From assembly GCA_007124045.1 (NCBI GenBank), contig SLFX01000142.1, positions 1-41,053 on the forward strand: a stretch of 41,053 bases of DNA, read 5' to 3'. This DNA comes from Candidatus Delongbacteria bacterium (GTDB taxonomy: Bacteria > UBA4055). Below are positions 23,186 to 37,119 of this stretch, piece after piece (position 1 is the stretch's first letter; the number at the start of each line of letters is the position of its first letter). The notes beneath the pieces were generated by a model that was given only the letters and a program-made list of their open reading frames with translations, was not told the DNA's origin and made no database searches. Position numbers and translations under genes: made by a program.

Positions 23186-23767
23186 ATGGATCCGCTTACA
23201 AAAAAAACTCTTCAGAAACACCTGGCTGTGTTTCTTGCGATATTATCGGTTTTGTCAATATATCTTTTCTACATTGATAAAAGGCTGTATGTCTGGATAT
23301 TTTTCTCGCTATACACGCTTCTGACGATAATTCTTCACTATTACTATGTTTCTGTACAACGGGTAAGATTGGCACAGATGGTAAAAAAAGAAGAGGATAT
23401 GCTCAAACAGAAAGAAGAGTCGGAATCAAAAACAAAATACCTGAAGACTTTGAGGAAGAAAAAGATAATGGAAGAGCAGACCAAGGCTGTTCATGCGTTG
23501 GTTATTGCACAAAATCATAAGATAAATTCTCTGCTCAACGGTATAATCGGATATTGTTCTATCCTTAGTAACAAGATAAATAAGAGCAGTTTGGAAAACA
23601 AAGAATCAATAGTTAATATCGTGAAAAAGATAAAAACCAGCGGTGATTCGATCAATAAAATGATGAAAGATTTCGACAACCCGGACAATCAGGTTATAAA
23701 GGAGATTTTTGATACAAAAGAGTATCTTGACCTTGAGAAAGAATACCTTGAGAAAGATATTGTTTAA
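23186..23767 (+). CDS. Membrane-anchored coiled-coil protein with an isolated HisKA/DHp-like helical segment (no ATPase domain)
   Basis: Two N-terminal TM helices, charged coiled coil, then ALVIAQNHKINSLLNGIIGYCSILSN resembling the DHp H-box; ends without N/G boxes. AGGAGG RBS. Confidence 0.55.
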   Translation: MDPLTKKTLQKHLAVFLAILSVLSIYLFYIDKRLYVWIFFSLYTLLTIILHYYYVSVQRVRLAQMVKKEEDMLKQKEESESKTKYLKTLRKKKIMEEQTKAVHALVIAQNHKINSLLNGIIGYCSILSNKINKSSLENKESIVNIVKKIKTSGDSINKMMKDFDNPDNQVIKEIFDTKEYLDLEKEYLEKDIV

Positions 23768-25361: not shown

Positions 25362-26288
25362 TTACTTTCCGGAGTATTTTTTCAAATCCGAGACAGGCAG
25401 ATCGAAAAGAAGAAAATCCCCTTCGGATTCCCAGCTTTTGAAATTTTGCTCTTTAAAAAGATTTGAAGCTTTTTTATCTTTGGGGTTTATCACAACACAA
25501 ATACTTTCTTTTTTCATTGAATACGATATCTGTTTTGCTTTTTGAAAAAGCTCTTTGAAATATTTCGGATCATCCGCCTCCATCATGCTTATGAAAAGAT
25601 CTTCCTTCTCCCTTTCCGAATAGAGAAATAATCCTCTTATACTTCCTTCCTTTTTCAAAACAACACATCTTCCCTTCTCGATATACTCCACCCTGATCAT
25701 ATCGTCTTCAAATGGCCTGATAACCCACGAATGACAAAGACCGTGAGGATTATTCTTTTTCCACTCAGATCTGTTAATGTAGTCCATCACATCAGACACA
25801 TTATAAGATACTTCTGCTGTATTCTTCATGTACTTAGGAATATTCTTCAAATTCGGCAGCCTGTATGATTTATGGTCATACCTTCCGAGTATCCTAAAAC
25901 CCATCTTTGAAAAAAGCCTTATTGAAGAATCATTCCTGAAATATGTCGCAAAACGGACTGTTTTAACCTTACTGTCATTTGCAAGACTGCAGAGTATATG
26001 ATGCGTAAGAAATCTGCCAATTCCCTTAACCTCTACACTCATATCTTTTCTCAGACCTTCTATCCATGCGTCATTAGGAGTCAGCATAGAAAGTTTTTCA
26101 AAACCGATCAGCCTGTCGTTTTTATCAACAGCCGCAATGAACATTCCTTTTGGGTCATTCACCCATGATTCATAAACCAGAGGCATATAATCATGGCCGT
26201 CCCATATATTTCTGACGATCCTTTCCATTTCCGGTCTGTCGGAAAGCTTCATTTCTCTTATCTTCAGATCATTAACATCAAGTTTCAA
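25362..26288 (-). CDS. GNAT family N-acetyltransferase (two-domain, ~308 aa)
   Basis: DLKIREMKLSDRPEMERIVRNIW; SVEVKGIGRFLTHHILCSL...RLFSKMGFRILGRY. Confidence 0.85.
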   Translation of the reverse strand: MKLDVNDLKIREMKLSDRPEMERIVRNIWDGHDYMPLVYESWVNDPKGMFIAAVDKNDRLIGFEKLSMLTPNDAWIEGLRKDMSVEVKGIGRFLTHHILCSLANDSKVKTVRFATYFRNDSSIRLFSKMGFRILGRYDHKSYRLPNLKNIPKYMKNTAEVSYNVSDVMDYINRSEWKKNNPHGLCHSWVIRPFEDDMIRVEYIEKGRCVVLKKEGSIRGLFLYSEREKEDLFISMMEADDPKYFKELFQKAKQISYSMKKESICVVINPKDKKASNLFKEQNFKSWESEGDFLLFDLPVSDLKKYSGK

Positions 26289-26845
26289 TGTTTCACCTTT
26301 TTGCTTAGTTTTTTAGAATATTCATCAATTGAAAAAACATACTGCATTTTTAACCTTTCCGGTCTTGATTCGTCTCCGATCACTTTTTTCTTCCGTGATT
26401 TCTTACCTACAGATATCAGGGCTATAACATCCCATTCTTCCGGTATTGAAAGCATTTTTTTTATTTTACGAACGGAAAATCCGGCTATAGCATGAGTAGC
26501 GAGGCCCATTTCAGTAGCTCTTAAGAGCATTTGCCCCACAGCAAGACCTGTGTCGAACTGATAATAGTACCTGTCCCTGATAACGCAGTCGAGATCCTTT
26601 TTTGAGATGACAGCTATAATGCAGGATGAATCAAACATCCATTCATTACCTTTGCTGATCGCGTCTCTAACCACATCAAGTTTTTCAGAAGACCTTATGA
26701 AAATAAATTTCCACGGCTGGTTATTGTAGCATGAAGGAGCGAAACTTGCAGCCTTTGCGAGCTCTCTTATTATTTCGTCGTTTATCTCAACCGGCTCAAG
26801 AGCTCTGTATGATCTTCTCTTTTCGATCGCTTTTTCAACTTTCAT
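26285..26845 (-). CDS. Nitroreductase family protein
   Basis: AIEKRRSYRALEPVEINDEIIRELAKAASFAPSCYNNQPWKFIFI; MGLATHAIAGF. Confidence 0.93.
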   Translation of the reverse strand: MKVEKAIEKRRSYRALEPVEINDEIIRELAKAASFAPSCYNNQPWKFIFIRSSEKLDVVRDAISKGNEWMFDSSCIIAVISKKDLDCVIRDRYYYQFDTGLAVGQMLLRATEMGLATHAIAGFSVRKIKKMLSIPEEWDVIALISVGKKSRKKKVIGDESRPERLKMQYVFSIDEYSKKLSKKVKH

Positions 26846-28358
26846 CTTTTACCCCGTACAGTTTATTTACAAGATAGTTTATCTTTTTTTCAGAATTACT
26901 GTAACAAATATCAGTTGCCGTCATTCTCCTGACCAGCGAATCTATTTTTTTTATTATATTCATATCAGGATCTTTTGGGAAAGGTAATTCTTCCAATGCA
27001 GACTTTAAAACTTTAATCCCGGGAAATTCAGCTTTGTAAATCCTGACGATAATTTCAGAATTCAAGATCGCCATTACCGACATGATCGTGTAACCCGGAA
27101 GATCAGGTATGAGGATATTCGCACTGTTGAGAGACAAAAAACCTGATCTGTCATAAGCAAAAACGGGTTTTGATGAAATAAACTTGTAAAAAAGCTTTTC
27201 TCTACCGAAAATCATGTTCTTCGGCACCTGCTGCATTCTATCGAAATCATCTGAAAGATAAACATGGTCGCCTCCTATCCTGTAAGGCATGATATTTTTA
27301 CCTGTAACAGTTCGGTGGATATGTTTTTTTGTTTTCTTTTCAGACACGAAAACAGAATTATTCCCTGTTACGATACCTAGGCTCCACTCCGCTCTGTTTT
27401 TTAAAGTTATATGAGGAATTTCGAATATTTTTTTCACAAGTACTCTTTCTGTCTGCGAATTATATATATCGAATTTATTATACTTTCCATTTAGAAGATC
27501 AGATTGTAAAAGATACATGTTACATGAATTATTAACAGTATGGTCGTCAGAAGGTTTTTTTTTCTTCATGTCAATCCTTACAGCTTCTGTAAAAACCCCC
27601 GGAAATATCCTCCCGTAATTTTTTATTTTCAAAATCGAGGTTTTTTTTAAAATAAAATCTCGTAATTCTGAAAACCTTTTTACCGTTAAAACAGATTCAG
27701 GAAGAATGAAAGACATTATACCGTCTTTTTTAAGAACATTAAAAGATTTGCGTATAAAATATTCCAGTGAATCTTTTGATTTAGAATCCGGATATATCTC
27801 CTTTAAGTATTTAACCGCATCTTTTGAAAAATGAGCCCCCCATGGCGGATTAGTGAAGATAAAATCGAATTTTTTGCCGGTATCAACTGTCAGAAAATCG
27901 GCATTTGATATCATGCATTCATATCCGGCCAGATTTAGTTCCTTTTTCGTTTTTTCTGCTGCCGACAGATCAGTTTCATAACCGTAAAGTCTTACCGAAT
28001 TGCCGTATTTTTTTGCAGCAGTGCTCAAAAATACTCCCGAACCGCAGCACGGATCACAAAAAAGAGATCCTTTTCGAATATCATAATCGTTTATTATCTC
28101 GCATACAATATTTTCCGGAGTATAAAAAGAACCGTTTAGTGCCTTGTAAGCATTGTCAGAAAATTTTTTATTGGCTCTTGATCTGAGTTTCCCTAAGTCT
28201 CCGGATCTTAAAGACCGTATCGTGTTTTCAATACCGGAAAAACCTGACCCTTCCCTGCGCAGAATACCTGATTTTGACCAGTTATGTACCGTAGCCTGCG
28301 AAACAAGAAGGCGGTCAGCAGCGTCCTTTACGGAAATATCTTCGTGAGAACTCTTCAT
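26835..28358 (-). CDS. N6-adenine DNA methyltransferase with N-terminal MerR/excisionase-like HTH and TaqI-like target-recognition C-terminus
   Basis: HTH ISVKDAADRLLVSQATVHNWSKSGIL; motif I LFCDPCCGSGVFL; motif IV FTNPPWG; FSLNSANILIP-type TaqI-like TRD segments. ATG at 28358 gives an ATGA overlap with the queH stop (track start 28385 probably too long). Confidence 0.85.
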   Translation of the reverse strand: MKSSHEDISVKDAADRLLVSQATVHNWSKSGILRREGSGFSGIENTIRSLRSGDLGKLRSRANKKFSDNAYKALNGSFYTPENIVCEIINDYDIRKGSLFCDPCCGSGVFLSTAAKKYGNSVRLYGYETDLSAAEKTKKELNLAGYECMISNADFLTVDTGKKFDFIFTNPPWGAHFSKDAVKYLKEIYPDSKSKDSLEYFIRKSFNVLKKDGIMSFILPESVLTVKRFSELRDFILKKTSILKIKNYGRIFPGVFTEAVRIDMKKKKPSDDHTVNNSCNMYLLQSDLLNGKYNKFDIYNSQTERVLVKKIFEIPHITLKNRAEWSLGIVTGNNSVFVSEKKTKKHIHRTVTGKNIMPYRIGGDHVYLSDDFDRMQQVPKNMIFGREKLFYKFISSKPVFAYDRSGFLSLNSANILIPDLPGYTIMSVMAILNSEIIVRIYKAEFPGIKVLKSALEELPFPKDPDMNIIKKIDSLVRRMTATDICYSNSEKKINYLVNKLYGVKDES

Positions 28359-28963
28359 TCTGCCGATCTTGCGGAAAATTCGCATCCGCAGTAGTCCTGC
28401 CTGTAAAGGTCATACTCTCTACTGATATCCAAAGATTTTTTAAAGCCGTTCTTTTTCTTGAAATCGGTATGAAGATATTTTATTTGGTAAATGCCGGAAT
28501 AATGGGCACCGATCTCATTGATTCTGATTGAGTCTTTATGGGGACTTATAGTTAAAGTAGTAGCAAAATAATCAAACTTTAAATGTTGAGCTTTTTCAGC
28601 GGTTTTAGACAACCTGAGTTCATAGCATCTTGAACACCTCTCCCCTCTTTCCACATCATTTTCAAGACCAAATGAGCAATTTGCAAAATCAAGTGGGGAA
28701 TATCTCTCGTAAATAACATTTATTTTTTTGTCTGTATCGTATTCTGACATAAATCTACTGAGCTCATCTTTTCTCCTGTTATGCTCACTTTCAGGATAGA
28801 TGTTCGGATTATAGAAATAAAGCGTCGTGTCAAAATAATCCGATACCGCATCCGAGGCGTATGAAGAGCATGGAGCACAGCATGTGTGAAGAAGAAGTTT
28901 CGGTCTTTTTCCGGTTCTTTTTACAGCTTCCAACTCTTCTGTAAATTTTTTAAAATGGTCCAT
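28355..28963 (-). CDS. queH: Epoxyqueuosine reductase QueH (DUF208)
   Basis: LLLHTCCAPCSSYASD, YFYNPNIYPESEHNRRKDEL, RCSRCYELRL, FATTLTISPHKD. Confidence 0.94.
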   Translation of the reverse strand: MDHFKKFTEELEAVKRTGKRPKLLLHTCCAPCSSYASDAVSDYFDTTLYFYNPNIYPESEHNRRKDELSRFMSEYDTDKKINVIYERYSPLDFANCSFGLENDVERGERCSRCYELRLSKTAEKAQHLKFDYFATTLTISPHKDSIRINEIGAHYSGIYQIKYLHTDFKKKNGFKKSLDISREYDLYRQDYCGCEFSARSAE

Positions 28964-29718
28964 TATTTTAACTCCGTAAGAATCTCGTATCCGTTCGGCA
29001 TTACCAGAACTGTATGCTCAAACTGGGCAGACAGGGATCCGTCTTTGGTTGTCACCGTCCATCCGTCCGATTTAGAGGTAATCACTTCATAACCGCCCAT
29101 ATTGATCATCGGCTCTATTGTAAAGCACATTCCGGGTTTAATTCTTATCCTGCCCTGTGAGGTATAAAAATGATAAACATGAGGATCTTCATGAAAATCG
29201 GATCCTATACCGTGCCCTCCATAGTCTCTTACTATTGAATATCCGAATTTTGTTACATACCTCTCTATAGCTTTACCTATTTCGGAAAAATATGAGTTTG
29301 ATTTAACTGCACCAATTCCTCTATACATTGCTTTTTCCGCTCTTTCGACAAGGAGTCTGACTGACTCGGGCGCATCTCCGACAATAAATGTTTTTGAAGT
29401 ATCTCCGTGATAACCTTCGACGATGACTGTTATATCAACATTCACAATATCGCCGTTCTTTAGTTCGACTTCCTGAGAAGGGATGCCGTGACAGACAACA
29501 TTATTTACAGATGTGCAAATGCTTCTGGGATAACCTCTGTAGTTCAAAGGTGCCGGTCTTGCACCGTTTTTGACTATAAACTCATGACACAATGCATCAA
29601 GTCTTCCTGTAGTTTCACCATCTGCAACAAAAGGGGAAATATAGTCTAAAACCTGAGCGGCAAGCTTTCCGGCTTTACGCATTTTCTGTATTTCTTCCCT
29701 GTTCTTTATCTTTATCAT
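28963..29718 (-). CDS. map: Methionine aminopeptidase type I
   Basis: MIKIKNREEIQKMRKAGKLAAQVL, YRGYPRSICTSVNNVVCHGIPS, DYGGHGIGSDFHEDP, FTIEPMI. Confidence 0.97.
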   Translation of the reverse strand: MIKIKNREEIQKMRKAGKLAAQVLDYISPFVADGETTGRLDALCHEFIVKNGARPAPLNYRGYPRSICTSVNNVVCHGIPSQEVELKNGDIVNVDITVIVEGYHGDTSKTFIVGDAPESVRLLVERAEKAMYRGIGAVKSNSYFSEIGKAIERYVTKFGYSIVRDYGGHGIGSDFHEDPHVYHFYTSQGRIRIKPGMCFTIEPMINMGGYEVITSKSDGWTVTTKDGSLSAQFEHTVLVMPNGYEILTELK

Positions 29719-29726
29719 TCAATAGC

Positions 29727-30191
29727 TTATATCTGTTTGAAAAGATCCGCCATTTCTATTGCGGAAAGCATTGCATCCCATCCTTTATTTCCGGATTTTG
29801 TTCCGGCTCTGTCTATCGCCTGTTCCACAGAATCTGTTGTCAGAACACCGAATATGACCGGGATTCCGCTTTTGAGACCGGCATGGGCCACACCTTTTGA
29901 AACCTCGGCCGATACATATTCGAAATGTGGAGTACTTCCTCTTATTACCGCTCCGAGACACACCACAGCATCGTATTTACCTTTTGAAGCAAGTTTCTGA
30001 GCAGTAACCGGGATCTCGAAAGCTCCGGGAACCAGTACGAGTTCAAGATCATCTCCTGAACCGCCGTGCCTGATAAAGCAGTCTTCCGCTCCGCCTATAA
30101 GCTTATTTGTGATCAGTTCGTTGAACCTCGATCCAACAACAGCTATCTTCAAGCCGTCCGCCTTAAGCTGCCCGTTGACAGTTTTCATCAT
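29727..30191 (-). CDS. ribH: 6,7-dimethyl-8-ribityllumazine synthase
   Basis: [65 protein letters not shown]. Confidence 0.97.
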
Positions 30192-30202: not shown

Positions 30203-31789
30203 TTAGTTAATATTTTTCTGATTCTGAGCTACCGGAACCTTAATTATAAAAGTCGTTCCGGCTCCGACTTCGGATTCAATTGTTATTTCAGCCCCGTATG
30301 GTCTCAAAAGTGTTCTTACGCTGTCAAGTCCTATTCCGGTTCCTGTGGGTTCATCGCCCCTTGCATCTTTAAACTTTGGTTTAGTAGTAAAAAAAGGTTC
30401 AAAAATTTTAGATCTTATTTTATCAGGTATCCCTTTACCTGTATCCGCGATACTTATCTCTATTGATCCTTCTGAATATGAAACGGATATATTCATTTTT
30501 CTTATATCTGAGTCCCACATGGAATCAATTGCGTTTTTTAATATGTTCACGAAAACCTGTGAGAAGTCTGAATACAAACCGTATATTAGAGGGACATCTT
30601 TTTGAATACTTATCTTTTTTTCCACTTTGTTTTTGAAGAACTGATTGGACAGGAGGAATTCAAGCTCCTGTTCCATTACAAGTCCGAGATTAAGAGTTTC
30701 CCTGGTCAATGACTGCTGATCCCTTGCTTTCGACATCAAATTTTTGATTATTCCTGAAAGCTTACTTACTGACTGGTCTATAAGCTCAAAAAACTTCATT
30801 ATATCATCAATGCTTTGTAGTATGCTTTTATCGCCCCCATATTTTTCAGAAAGTAATTCCCTGAATTTTATAAGCCTGGAATGCTGGAGCTGAGCACTGC
30901 TTTTTATTCCCGTCAGTGGAGTACTCATATTATGGGCAACACCCTGTAGCATCATGCCAAATTCCGCGAGCCGGGACTGATTTTGTACCTGAAGAGCAAA
31001 AGATTTATTTTCTGACTCCAGTTTCTTCTGTTCTCTCATGTCTCTACCTATACCGAGGCTGCCAATGACATTACCGTTGTGAACAAGATTTGATATCGAA
31101 AGATGTATGGGTATCTCTTCGCCGTTCTTAGCCATGTAAAGCACTTCTCCGGAAAACTTACCATCTTTATCCAGAGACTTAAAAAGCGCTTTTATATTAT
31201 CCTCCTGCTCCTTGTTTTTTACAAGAAAATCTGCTATATGCCTTCCTTTCATTTCATCTGAACTGTATCCGAGTATAGTTCTCAGAGATGAGTTCACGCT
31301 GTTTATTCTTGCCTTTTTATCTGTTGCATATATAGTGTACAGTTCTGTCAGGGAGTTATAAATAGACATAAAAAGAGAGTTTACTTCCGAATCTTCGGAC
31401 CTGGTACTGAAAGGACTGAACTTTATAAATAATCCGACTATGTTGTTTCCTTCATCAAGAACCGGATTCAGTTTAACAGATACCGTTACAGCTCTGCCTT
31501 TGTAGTCACTAAGGTCTAATCTTACAAGTCCCTCTTTGAATTTTTTAGCAAGAGCGTTTCTTACAATATTCTGAAACTTTACCTTGTCTCTTTCATGAAC
31601 AGAATCAATTATATTGTTCCCGAAAAGTAATTTTCTCTGGCTGTTCATAAGTTTACAGAATTTCAGATTACAGTCCACAATTTTAAAATAGCTGTTGATC
31701 TCCACAAAATAATCTTGTGCAATATCAATATAATCCTGAACTACAGAACCTTTTCTCAGATATAATTCTTTAAGTTCAATCATCGTCAC
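30203..31789 (-). CDS. Soluble PAS-PAS sensor histidine kinase
   Basis: PAS ([16 protein letters not shown]...[17 protein letters not shown]), H-box [14 protein letters not shown]-box [11 protein letters not shown]-boxes [10 protein letters not shown] and GTGIGLDSV. No TM helix seen. Confidence 0.93.
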
Positions 31790-31796
31790 TCCTGTT

Positions 31797-33305
31797 CTAT
31801 ATTAAAGCTCTTCCCGTCATTTCAGGAGGTAGTTTCAAACCCATTATTTTTAAAACAGTTGGTGCAATAGAGGCCAGATTACCGTCTGAGATATCGTAGC
31901 CTTCCTTCAAGATCATAAAAGGCACCCTGTTCTTTGTGTGAGCAGTAAAAGGTACATTATTTTCCATCATTGATTCTGCGTTCCCGTGGTCTGCAGTTAT
32001 TATCATAGTATATCCGCTTTTTAAGGATTCTTCATACAGCCGGCCTACGCATTCGTCAACAGTCTCAACTGCTTTCACCGCAGCATCAAATATTCCGGTA
32101 TGCCCCACCATATCACAATTTGCCAGATTCAAAACCAAAAGATCATATATCTGTTCCGACATTTTTTTGCAGGTCGTTCCGGTCACTTCAAAGGCTGACA
32201 TTTCCGGTTTGAGATCATATGTTGACACCTTGGGAGAAGGAATAAGTATTCTGTCTTCTCCGGGAAAGGACATTTCATTTCCGCCGTTAAAAAAAAATGT
32301 AACATGAGCATATTTTTCTGTTTCAGCTATCCTGAGCTGCTTTAATCCGTTTTTTGATATCTCCTCGCCGAGAATGTTTTCCAGATGCTGTTTGGGGGAT
32401 ATTACACTGAAATCAAAATCTTCCCTGTATTCTGTCATAGTGAGGAAGTCCAAATCAAGTTCCGGAGTTTCGAAAGGAAGTTTTTCAAGAGAGTTCAGAG
32501 CTATTGAAAGTTCCCTTGCTCTGTCGGCGCGAAAATTAAAAAAAACAACTGAGTCTCTTTTTTTGATCGTAGCTAAAGAAGTGCCGTTCTTAACAACCTG
32601 CTGAGGAAAAATAAACTCATCGGTCACACCCGAAGCATAGGATTTTTCGATTATTTCTGCCGCACTTATGCTCGACGCATTTTTATTCTGTACCGTCAGG
32701 CAGTCATACGCTTTTTTTAGCCTTTCCCATCTTTTATCACGATCCATCGCATAATACCTGCCGGAAACTGAGGCTATCTGCGCACCATAAGAATCGGCGA
32801 AACCCTCCAATGACTTCAGGAAACCCGCCCCGCTTTGCGGAGGAGTATCCCTGCCGTCGGTAAAAACATGGATGTATATTTTTTTCAGTCCCGCCTCTGA
32901 TGCCGAGCGGATAAGCTCATAAAGGTGGGGAAGTGAAGAGTGTACATCTCCATCCGATACCAAACCCATCAAATGCAGGGAAGATCCTTTTTCTGCTGTT
33001 TTTTTATATAGATCCGCCAATGCGGGATTATTGCCGAATTCACCGTCCCCGATCATTTTGTTTATACGGCCGATGTCCTGAAACACTATCCTGCCGGCAC
33101 CGATGTTCAGATGCCCTACTTCACTATTACCCATTGTTCCCTCGGGTAATCCGACTTCATAACCTGAACATACAAGTTCTGAAAACGAGAATTTTCTGAG
33201 AAAACGGGATATATTAGGCTTAGAGGCCTTTGCGACAGCATTATATTCAAAATCTCTACCGTTTCCGTAGCCGTCAAGAATGCATAATAAAACTCTTTCT
33301 TTCAT
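31797..33305 (-). CDS. gpmI: 2,3-bisphosphoglycerate-independent phosphoglycerate mutase
   Basis: VLLCILDGYGNG, GNSEVGHLNIGAGR, FTDGRDTPP, FNFRADRARE, NCDMVGHTG, TADHGNAE. ATG at 33305 chosen over 33320. Confidence 0.96.
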   Translation of the reverse strand: MKERVLLCILDGYGNGRDFEYNAVAKASKPNISRFLRKFSFSELVCSGYEVGLPEGTMGNSEVGHLNIGAGRIVFQDIGRINKMIGDGEFGNNPALADLYKKTAEKGSSLHLMGLVSDGDVHSSLPHLYELIRSASEAGLKKIYIHVFTDGRDTPPQSGAGFLKSLEGFADSYGAQIASVSGRYYAMDRDKRWERLKKAYDCLTVQNKNASSISAAEIIEKSYASGVTDEFIFPQQVVKNGTSLATIKKRDSVVFFNFRADRARELSIALNSLEKLPFETPELDLDFLTMTEYREDFDFSVISPKQHLENILGEEISKNGLKQLRIAETEKYAHVTFFFNGGNEMSFPGEDRILIPSPKVSTYDLKPEMSAFEVTGTTCKKMSEQIYDLLVLNLANCDMVGHTGIFDAAVKAVETVDECVGRLYEESLKSGYTMIITADHGNAESMMENNVPFTAHTKNRVPFMILKEGYDISDGNLASIAPTVLKIMGLKLPPEMTGRALI

Positions 33306-33309
33306 CGTG

Positions 33310-34086
33310 CTAATACCCAAAGTAGATAGTTGCCCTATAGATCAGTCCGGAAATATCAAGATCCGGAACATTCCTTACCGACTCGAAACCGTAGTTTATT
33401 TCACTCTTGTCGGAAAACATACCGTAAATGTAACCGACTGATGCTCCGGCAGCAACTCGGGGTGACGCAAAAAACCTTACACCGTTCTCGGCCTCAAAAA
33501 CATAGACCCCTGTAGTGTATTTCACAGATCTGTTATACCTGCTCAACAATCCGCTGCCAGGATCAAAAGAATCCCACATCTCTTCAAATGTCTGGTCGCC
33601 GTAATCCTGACTTATGATGATACTGGGTCTTCCGTAAGAAGCTCCGAAAGCTCCGAAAAATTCTAATTTTCCCGCCAGTACCTTTCTGTAGCTGAGTGAC
33701 AGACCGAATCTCGAAAAAGCAGATTCTACTGATCTGTCAAGTTTGATATCGTTTTCAACACAACAATACTGATATTCGACAGTCCCTATTTTTCTTTGTA
33801 CCTGTCCGCCCCTGAGATACTTTATTCCTATTCCCAATGCGGGGTTAAAAAAACCGTGAAGTTCAAAGCCGTAAGATAAATAATTTTTATCCGCCTCATC
33901 GAGACCGAACGATTTAAGATATCCACTCAAATCATACATAAAAGAAGGAGAATAAGTTGAAAAAACGCTAATATAACCGTTTTTAAAGCCTGCAGACTGA
34001 CCTCTTCCTGCCGGCAAAGGTCGCGAGTTGGATTGAACCGGAAACATAAGCATGAAAACTATTAATGAATAAAATCTTATGGTCAT
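33310..34086 (-). CDS. Predicted outer-membrane beta-barrel protein
   Basis: N-terminal hydrophobic signal, alternating aromatic beta strands, terminal ATIYFGY. Confidence 0.55.
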   Translation of the reverse strand: MTIRFYSLIVFMLMFPVQSNSRPLPAGRGQSAGFKNGYISVFSTYSPSFMYDLSGYLKSFGLDEADKNYLSYGFELHGFFNPALGIGIKYLRGGQVQRKIGTVEYQYCCVENDIKLDRSVESAFSRFGLSLSYRKVLAGKLEFFGAFGASYGRPSIIISQDYGDQTFEEMWDSFDPGSGLLSRYNRSVKYTTGVYVFEAENGVRFFASPRVAAGASVGYIYGMFSDKSEINYGFESVRNVPDLDISGLIYRATIYFGY

Positions 34087-35277: not shown

Positions 35278-37119
35278 ATGAATCTTCGTTATTTGTGCTT
35301 TGTCCTGCTTTTGCCTATGCTTATTGTCCCGGGTATAGTTTTTGACCCTGAAACAAGTATAGCGATATCGACAGTTTTTGAAAGAGATGATTATGTTCCG
35401 GGTGAAGAATTTAAAATGATAATTTCCCTTTCTGTTCCGGGGGGTTATCATATTACCGGTGGAGAGCTGTTTTATTTTGATACAGAAAACTTTCCTGAAC
35501 TCAATTCTGAAGCAATTCTGCTTTCAGGACAAATGCTGTACAGAGATGAGACTGTTTTCGCTGGAGATGTCTTATATGTTTTTGAAGGCATCTTTCCGGA
35601 AGAAAAGGACCGGAGTATTTATTTAGGTTATCAGATATGCAACGAGATAGAGGATTTCTGTTACATCCCTGTTAATAGAATCGTTAACGTCGATTTCAAC
35701 AATATTGATGCCTCAATGTTCGCTTACAGCGTTTTACAAACTGTAGTTGATACCGGCAGCGGAAATATAGAGGGTGATTATTTCACATTTGAAGAAAAAC
35801 TTGCCGGCATGTTCAGAGGCAGATCATCATGGTCATTGATAGTTTTTATCCTGGCTTTTATCGGAGGTTTTCTGACAAGTCTCACACCCTGTGTCTATCC
35901 AATAATTCCTGTAGTCATAAGTTATATGGGAGCAAAATCTGATAATAAAAAAAGTGCGGGGTTTTTTCTTTCTCTGTTTTTCGTTTCAGGACTGGCTTTA
36001 ACTTATACCACCATCGGCCTTCTGGCTTCTTTTTTCAGCGGTGTCTTCGGTATAGGTGATTTTGCAGCCCATCCTGTGATCAGAATCTTTATTGCGTTAG
36101 TTTTTACTATACTCGCTTTGAGCATGTTCGGTTTCTGGGATATGACATTTCTATCATCAGAAAATCAGACGGGTCTTATGAATAAGGGCAAAAAAAAGAA
36201 AGGTATCGCAGGGGCATTATTTATTGGAATGGTTAGCGGACTGATAGCGGCTCCGTGCGTTGGTCCGGTACTGGCAGTTCTTCTAATACATGTGGCTAAT
36301 GCCGGAGATGTCCTTTACGGCGGGCTCCTGTTCCTCACTTTCTCATTGGGTATGGGTATTCTTTTTATTGTTATTGGTACTTTTTCCGGTGCTGTTTCCG
36401 CACTGCCCGGTTCAGGTGTATGGATGATAAAGGTTAAAAAGGTCTTCGGTATTCTGATGATGGCAGCTGCTGTATATTTTATCAAGCTTTCAATCCCGGA
36501 ACCACTTTATTTCGCTATTGTATCATTGCTTTTGTTTATGCTTGCCGGTTTTCTTGGCGCATTTTCAGGATTTAATAATAAGAATGCCGGCATTGCGGAT
36601 TATCTTGGTAAATCTTCCGGACTTCTGGTCTTGACGGCTGCATTTATTTTTTCGGTAAAGACAGTTTCTGTGTTTACAGACATTCCTTTTTCAAGCAGTG
36701 TTTATGTAAATCCTGTACATAAAACAGAGGGCGTTGAATTTATAAAAACCGATAATGATATGTCAATAATTGAAAAAGCTGTAGAAAAAGCGCATGAATC
36801 AGATAAGATGATCTTGGTTGACCTTTGGGCAGAATGGTGCAAGAATTGCATTGAGCTTGACAGAAGAACATGGTCCGACCCGAAAGTCTACAATTATATT
36901 AATGAACATTTTATTCCGGTAAAACTTGATTTTACAGATAACAGAAGCCCTTTCTCGCGAAAGTTTATTGATAAATACAAAGATTACGGTTCATCTAATC
37001 TGCCTCTGATACTTTTTCTGGATAAGGAAGGAAGAGTCGTTGATACGGTTGTAGGTTTTCTGAATGCCGAAAGAATGCTGAACAGATCGTCTAACATATA
37101 TGAAAAATACTCAAAATAA
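35278..37119 (+). CDS. dsbD: DsbD-type thiol:disulfide interchange protein with C-terminal thioredoxin domain
   Basis: FIGGFLTSLTPCVYPIIPVVISYMG, GLIAAPCVGPVLAVLL, C-term VDLWAEWCKNCIELDRRTWSD. Confidence 0.92.
   Translation: MNLRYLCFVLLLPMLIVPGIVFDPETSIAISTVFERDDYVPGEEFKMIISLSVPGGYHITGGELFYFDTENFPELNSEAILLSGQMLYRDETVFAGDVLYVFEGIFPEEKDRSIYLGYQICNEIEDFCYIPVNRIVNVDFNNIDASMFAYSVLQTVVDTGSGNIEGDYFTFEEKLAGMFRGRSSWSLIVFILAFIGGFLTSLTPCVYPIIPVVISYMGAKSDNKKSAGFFLSLFFVSGLALTYTTIGLLASFFSGVFGIGDFAAHPVIRIFIALVFTILALSMFGFWDMTFLSSENQTGLMNKGKKKKGIAGALFIGMVSGLIAAPCVGPVLAVLLIHVANAGDVLYGGLLFLTFSLGMGILFIVIGTFSGAVSALPGSGVWMIKVKKVFGILMMAAAVYFIKLSIPEPLYFAIVSLLLFMLAGFLGAFSGFNNKNAGIADYLGKSSGLLVLTAAFIFSVKTVSVFTDIPFSSSVYVNPVHKTEGVEFIKTDNDMSIIEKAVEKAHESDKMILVDLWAEWCKNCIELDRRTWSDPKVYNYINEHFIPVKLDFTDNRSPFSRKFIDKYKDYGSSNLPLILFLDKEGRVVDTVVGFLNAERMLNRSSNIYEKYSK

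Follow-up and report, generated by a model that had tools for sequence, protein, structure and literature searches.

A DNA methyltransferase (MTase) encoded directly behind queH in Candidatus Delongbacteria is probably a lineage-conserved orphan N6-adenine enzyme that descends from a restriction-modification (R-M) ancestor and serves a chromosomal function. In the course of events that we propose, an ancestral type II R-M system consisting of an MTase with a fused HTH and a PD-(D/E)XK nuclease would have lost its nuclease, and in the ancestor of several Delongbacteria genera the remaining MTase would have become established after queH, within an operon of housekeeping genes. There, it would be produced via translational coupling with queH, bind its target through its TaqI-like C-terminal domain, and, at its NPPW motif, transfer a methyl group from SAM to the N6 of adenine. 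The resulting mark would probably be chromosomal and might act in gene regulation or in the timing of replication or repair, as for Dam, CcrM, and CamA. We prefer such a chromosomal role over its rivals because solitary MTases that are conserved across related species are common, and regulatory sites often stay unmethylated by them (PMC4752239).

The gene, its operon, and the protein

The analysed DNA, a stretch of 41,053 nucleotides that we call the window, belongs to a Candidatus Delongbacteria MAG (G000) of 2.0 Mb in 184 contigs that is 95% complete. The features that concern us are the following:

31797 to 33320, minus strand: gpmI-like gene (name from the initial annotation; synteny, 59-64% identity)
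30203 to 31789, minus strand: PAS histidine kinase (HATPase_c and PAS domains; synteny)
29727 to 30191, minus strand: ribH-like gene (name from the initial annotation; synteny, 73-79% identity in relatives)
28963 to 29718, minus strand: map, methionine aminopeptidase (PF00557; within the conserved gene order)
28355 to 28963, minus strand: queH, epoxyqueuosine reductase (PF02677, E 9e-63)
26835 to 28358, minus strand: gamma-class DNA N6-adenine MTase, solitary, 507 aa (predicted from Pfam, PADLOC, phmmer, and the model)
28161 to 28358, minus strand: N-terminal MerR/excisionase-type winged HTH with a conserved L-x-x-RANK linker, residues 1-66 (HTH_17, model, conservation)
28026 to 28055, minus strand: motif I DPCCGSGVFL, SAM binding, residues 102-111 (sequence)
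27837 to 27851, minus strand: motif IV NPPWG, catalytic, residues 170-174 (sequence; invariant in 33 relatives)
26982 to 27308, minus strand: TaqI-like target recognition domain (TRD), residues 351-459 (PF12950 TaqI_C, E 2e-18)
26285 to 26845, minus strand: nitroreductase-family gene downstream of the MTase (PF00881)

The MTase reading frame runs on the minus strand from the ATG at 28358-28356 to a TGA ending at 26835, and its start codon overlaps the queH TGA (28357-28355) in an ATGA arrangement at 28358-28355, as the initial annotation had described. An alternative ATG at 28385, within queH, would add nine residues; we favour the start at 28358 because the starts of the orthologues lie within 0-15 bases of the queH stop. 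The 3′ end of the MTase overlaps the start of the nitroreductase gene by 11 bp, and these two overlaps embed the MTase in a tight gene run. The claimed order of gpmI, histidine kinase, ribH, map, queH, MTase, nitroreductase, and GNAT holds for the genes that were scanned. Likewise, the claimed absence of a restriction endonuclease nearby agrees with a PADLOC search of 20 neighbouring proteins, none of which matched a defence gene at E<=1e-5. The low GC content that had also been pointed out is real in that the MTase, at 35.7% (GC3 32.9%, with 40.6% for the window), is the lowest in the operon. Nevertheless, it makes a weak argument, as the histidine kinase (36.7%) and queH (37.4%) are close to it; map stands at 41.0%, and an open reading frame at 23186-23767 has 34.2%, so that the MTase is a minimum of its operon and not an outlier. 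A horizontal origin is thus unsupported by base composition.

Pfam places three domains in the protein well above cut-off, namely N6_Mtase (residues 72-226), Eco57I (139-249), and TaqI_C (351-459), while PADLOC assigns it to MTase_II (PDLC03356, E 2e-79) and phmmer matches it to M.TaqI (E 3e-13). Within motif I, D102, P103, C105, G106, G108, and F110 are invariant in 33 relatives. The order of the parts, with motif I (102-111) followed by NPPW (170-173) and TaqI_C (351-459), is that of the gamma class of DNA amino-MTases, and, judging from what is known of these families, the enzyme would methylate the N6 position of adenine in DNA. The HTH is less obvious, given that its HTH_17 match (residues 9-34, E 6e-4) falls under the Pfam cut-off of 27 bits. 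However, an AlphaFold2 model with a mean pLDDT of 87.8 (about 77-80 in the HTH) contains helices at residues 10-17 and 21-29, a two-strand wing (34-36 and 39-41), and a further helix at 43-52, and the linker residues L58, R61, A62, and N63 are invariant in the 33 relatives. We consider the HTH to be real despite its score because of this helix-helix-wing-helix arrangement and its conservation in relatives from other phyla. Thus, the HTH, the two motifs, and the TaqI-like half proposed initially are all present, and the structure prediction that had been suggested as a check supports the first of them.

Several other identities were considered for this protein and rejected. A type IIG R-M enzyme would carry a nuclease domain, and the 507-aa chain holds only the HTH, MTase, and TRD. 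The match to PglX/BrxX of BREX reaches 70 bits against a cut-off of 500, and those proteins have about 1200 aa; the match to MADS2 is weak or partial and far under its cut-off.

Conservation and selection within Delongbacteria

We compared 13 genomes of the family, all of them MAGs and including G000; the locus is shared by named relatives that comprise Candidatus Delongbacteria MAGs and bacterium UBP11_UBA4055. The MTase lies directly behind queH in nine of the 13 (G000, G001, G003, G004, G006, G008, G009, G011, and G012), which represent five genera (g1, g2, g4, g5, and g7). The survey of relatives that the initial annotation had called for thus found the same arrangement beside queH and map well beyond a single strain. 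In fact, wherever a linked map-queH locus was assembled (nine genomes), the MTase follows queH, and the order ribH-map-queH, or a longer one, is shared upstream as far as the contigs reach; the contig of G001 ends within the gene, so that only its start is present, and that of G011 begins at queH. As for the other four genomes, both map and queH are missing from G007 and G010, meaning that the locus is absent from the assembly, and G002 and G005, which make up the other two genera, have map and queH on different contigs with no MTase there. The nearest MTase homologues in the latter two have 34-35% identity, another location, and a place in another part of the tree. All full-length Delongbacteria orthologues form one clade (SH-aLRT 100). 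At nine of 13 genomes, the gene is kept in more than half of the related species, which is the level used to define orphan MTases (PMC4752239), and it is most likely a conserved orphan MTase, as far as gene content and order can tell. Just upstream of the conserved run, the genomes G012 and G006 (genus g7), and only these, encode a protein of about 743 aa with a MAKKRSYSVDFKKEVIGYAQLHNII-like start (L027 16018-18246 and L028 6373-8607).

The steady partner of the MTase is queH, since g4 and g5 retain the nitroreductase and GNAT genes downstream, whereas G012 lacks them at this place. This adjacency in nine genomes, together with a tgt gene in the same window (as read from position and sequence), could suggest an enzyme that modifies tRNA or rRNA and is tied to queuosine biosynthesis. 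We regard this as very improbable, given that TaqI_C is a DNA specificity domain accompanied by Eco57I, that the best folds are those of DNA MTases bound to DNA, and that other relatives lie beside restriction enzymes or other genes rather than queH. The link to queH looks operonic only, as had been surmised.

Selection was estimated from a single pair of genomes, G008 and G011, with ratios taken from the printed dN and dS values. For the MTase, dN/dS was 0.067/0.532 (0.13), practically that of queH (0.072/0.616, 0.12), and the values by part were 0.048/0.409 (0.12) for the HTH, 0.091/0.613 (0.15) for the catalytic part, and 0.056/0.517 (0.11) for the TRD. All three parts are under purifying selection. 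Among Delongbacteria, MTase distances track RibH distances (Mantel r 0.79) and, less closely, those of Map (0.61) and QueH (0.54). In the weakest comparison, G009 (L033) with G012 (L027), both MAGs, Map is 94% and QueH 86% identical but the MTase only 51%, and inheritance is therefore best read as not strictly vertical, with at least one in-place replacement of the MTase allele. Such replacement would also fit a diversifying, defence-like evolution.

Relatives, the missing nuclease, and the HTH

A scan of GTDB species genomes, from which we took the 80 best relatives, found the MTase family in Spirochaetes, Bacteroidales, Patescibacteria, Clostridia, Melainabacteria, Alphaproteobacteria, and others, and most of these 80 proteins carry the HTH. 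Plasmid and phage collections contained almost no relatives (one on an Acetobacter plasmid and a partial one in a Thermus phage). At 23 of the 80 loci, the MTase is accompanied by a protein of about 245 aa that is homologous between the loci and is encoded, almost without exception, immediately after the MTase. It has an invariant D-x(n)-E-V-K pattern and is recognised by PADLOC as REase_II (PDLC03414, E down to 7e-117). A search for Pfam or NCBIfam families and PDB sequence matches gave nothing for it, leaving PDLC03414 as its only assignment, and its model weakly resembles PD-(D/E)XK nucleases, with NhoI and I-Ssp6803I as weak fold matches. Among the R-M relatives, MTase and nuclease distances agree (Mantel r 0.85). 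MTases with a nuclease occur at scattered positions in the MTase tree, requiring 14 changes by parsimony, and seven of the 13 members of the sister clade of the Delongbacteria MTases (support 98) have the nuclease. This tree is most simply read as an old R-M family in which the nuclease was lost repeatedly, and parsimony also allows repeated gain instead. The Delongbacteria MTase would most likely descend from a type II system of an HTH-MTase and this nuclease, with the nuclease lost.

A profile of the PDLC03414-type nuclease detected all five positive controls; it found nothing in the 13 family MAGs at E<=0.01 and nothing in G000, a 95% complete MAG, even at E<=10. A complete type II system with this nuclease was accordingly rejected for these genomes, and the cognate endonuclease elsewhere in the genome that the initial annotation had warned of did not appear in G000 as a homologue of this family. 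The second MTase match in G000, on contig C72 (L002 608-2972), is a type I HsdM-like protein of 516 aa and no paralogue of the queH-linked enzyme; a 274-aa protein of the DUF1016/YhcG kind, judged by eye, follows it, and the contig ends there, so that no further part of a type I system is seen.

These results bear on the possibility that the MTase protects the chromosome when R-M systems with its own specificity enter, as a kind of anti-restriction or "vaccine", rather than placing a regulatory mark. R-M versions of this family are common in many phyla, and the evolution of the MTase is faster than that of the adjacent genes and seems to include in-place replacement, as would suit such a role. 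Nevertheless, steady household use is suggested by the operon position, which is fixed in five genera, and by a dN/dS about as low as for queH, and the threat is not visible in the family, where none of the 13 genomes shows a PDLC03414 nuclease. We thus consider protection unlikely, though it is the strongest competitor of the chromosomal function that we prefer.

It is also conceivable that a nuclease of another kind lies elsewhere in the genome, so that the MTase is half of a split restriction or defence system, and there is a reported case (PMC4752239) of a type II system whose R and M genes are separated by at least 36 kb. The footprint of such a nuclease might be the near-absence of ACGT from G000, where 206 kb contained 7 sites although 287 were expected, the window has a single one (at 35687), and coding sequences have 6 against 319 expected once synonymous codons had been redrawn. 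No enrichment is seen for ACAT and ATGT (0.96), a result that argues for selection against ACGT and not for 5mC deamination; the depletion looks like strong restriction-type selection rather than codon choice or deamination of C. Genome-wide, we counted AACGTT in place of ACGT, with the reversed sequence as a control, and found 4 sites in the 2 Mb of G000 compared with 464 in the control. However, this depletion does not follow the MTase, since G004 has an orthologue and no depletion of ACGT (26 sites against 31 expected), while G002, which has no syntenic MTase, is depleted (48 AACGTT against 1253 in the control). Counts of AACGTT vary strongly even within genera (10 in G003, 85 in G007, and 417 in G010; 372 in G004, 81 in G008, and 67 in G011). 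Furthermore, solitary MTases alone do not deplete sites. We therefore find a split system quite doubtful. A search for the target through avoided palindromes, in five genomes with the cognate type of nuclease and in the pooled nuclease loci, gave no A-containing motif that was consistently avoided beyond controls.

The initial proposal took the HTH of a solitary MTase as a sign of directed or autoregulated methylation. This argument is not supported, given that the same HTH is fused to MTases of R-M pairs and is by itself uninformative on regulation. Its presence in plain type II R-M pairs implies that it predates nuclease loss, and it is an old trait of the MTase family across phyla and not in itself the mark of a regulator. 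Autoregulation of its own promoter is also unlikely, because the MTase has no intergenic region of its own in the window (its ATG lies within the ATGA shared with queH) and because the regions upstream of R-M relatives yielded no shared operator or inverted repeat. Inverted repeats were seen at single loci only (L045/L047 and L051, p about 0.016). Most likely, the HTH gives extra DNA binding, in the form of affinity or a preference for place. Its former role in R-M relatives may have been repression of the R-M promoter, by analogy with M.SsoII, whose N-terminal HTH represses the MTase promoter (PMC3978073). A more specific proposal is that of a regulatory MTase peculiar to this phylum, whose fused HTH would steer methylation to chosen chromosomal places, combining a DNA binder and an epigenetic writer in one polypeptide that is expressed in step with housekeeping translation via its coupling to queH; we deem this version improbable.

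Comparison with known systems

The R-M pairs of its own family (PADLOC PDLC03356/PDLC03348 MTase_II with PDLC03414) are close to the Delongbacteria enzyme and have the same HTH, RANK linker, and arrangement of catalytic part and TRD. They differ in the nuclease directly downstream and, at most of the loci inspected, in an intergenic region upstream of the MTase, both of which are missing in Delongbacteria. MTases of the M.SsoII/M.EcoRII type likewise carry a DNA-binding HTH at the N-terminus (PMC3978073), but they belong to the 5mC class, with a 434-repressor-like HTH and their own promoter and operator. In contrast, the Delongbacteria protein has N6_Mtase, Eco57I, and TaqI_C domains with a MerR/excisionase-like HTH, and no promoter or operator of its own is visible; given that the 5mC MTase domain is absent, an M.SsoII-type identity was rejected. 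NruI/Sbo13I was also discarded as a precedent for an HTH-MTase, as M.NruI is a 267-aa protein with a DPPY motif, and what is annotated as an HTH there belongs to a putative nuclease.

CamA, the orphan adenine MTase of C. difficile that recognises CAAAAA (PMC8187626), is likewise gamma-class, solitary, and lineage-conserved, with a monomeric-type layout in which the catalytic half is followed by the TRD. It is the best structural match in the PDB to our model (E 3e-31, followed by M.BseCI and M.TaqI), yet the identity is about 19% over the structural alignment, and phmmer gave no match between the two at E<=1, so that the likeness is one of fold only. Moreover, the Delongbacteria family has the added N-terminal HTH, and CamA is kept within one species, while the Delongbacteria MTase is found across genera.

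Other members of the MTase family also occupy fixed positions. In Bacteroidia, MTases without a detected HTH (L083, L091, L092, L094, L095, L098, L100, and L104) lie beside a tsaB-like gene on the opposite strand, with no nuclease, and are probably another independent solitary lineage. In two Spirochaetes (L046 6055-9350 and L054 2870-6097), a solitary HTH-MTase follows a pyrC-like (dihydroorotase-like) gene with gaps of 20 and 0 bases, inside a household run. Together with the Delongbacteria genes behind queH, these point to a path of origin in which a widespread pair of HTH-MTase and nuclease has lost the latter, apparently more than once. A family that exists both with and without the nuclease makes the role of the HTH directly testable.

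The orphan MTases surveyed by SMRT sequencing by Blow et al. in 2016 (PMC4752239), as well as Dam and CcrM, are similarly solitary and conserved above the species level, with the difference that their activity and motif were measured while the Delongbacteria enzyme is known from sequence. Enzymes of this kind are thus already known, and the Delongbacteria example adds a member, extending the solitary adenine MTase lineages to a little-studied candidate phylum without studied methylation.
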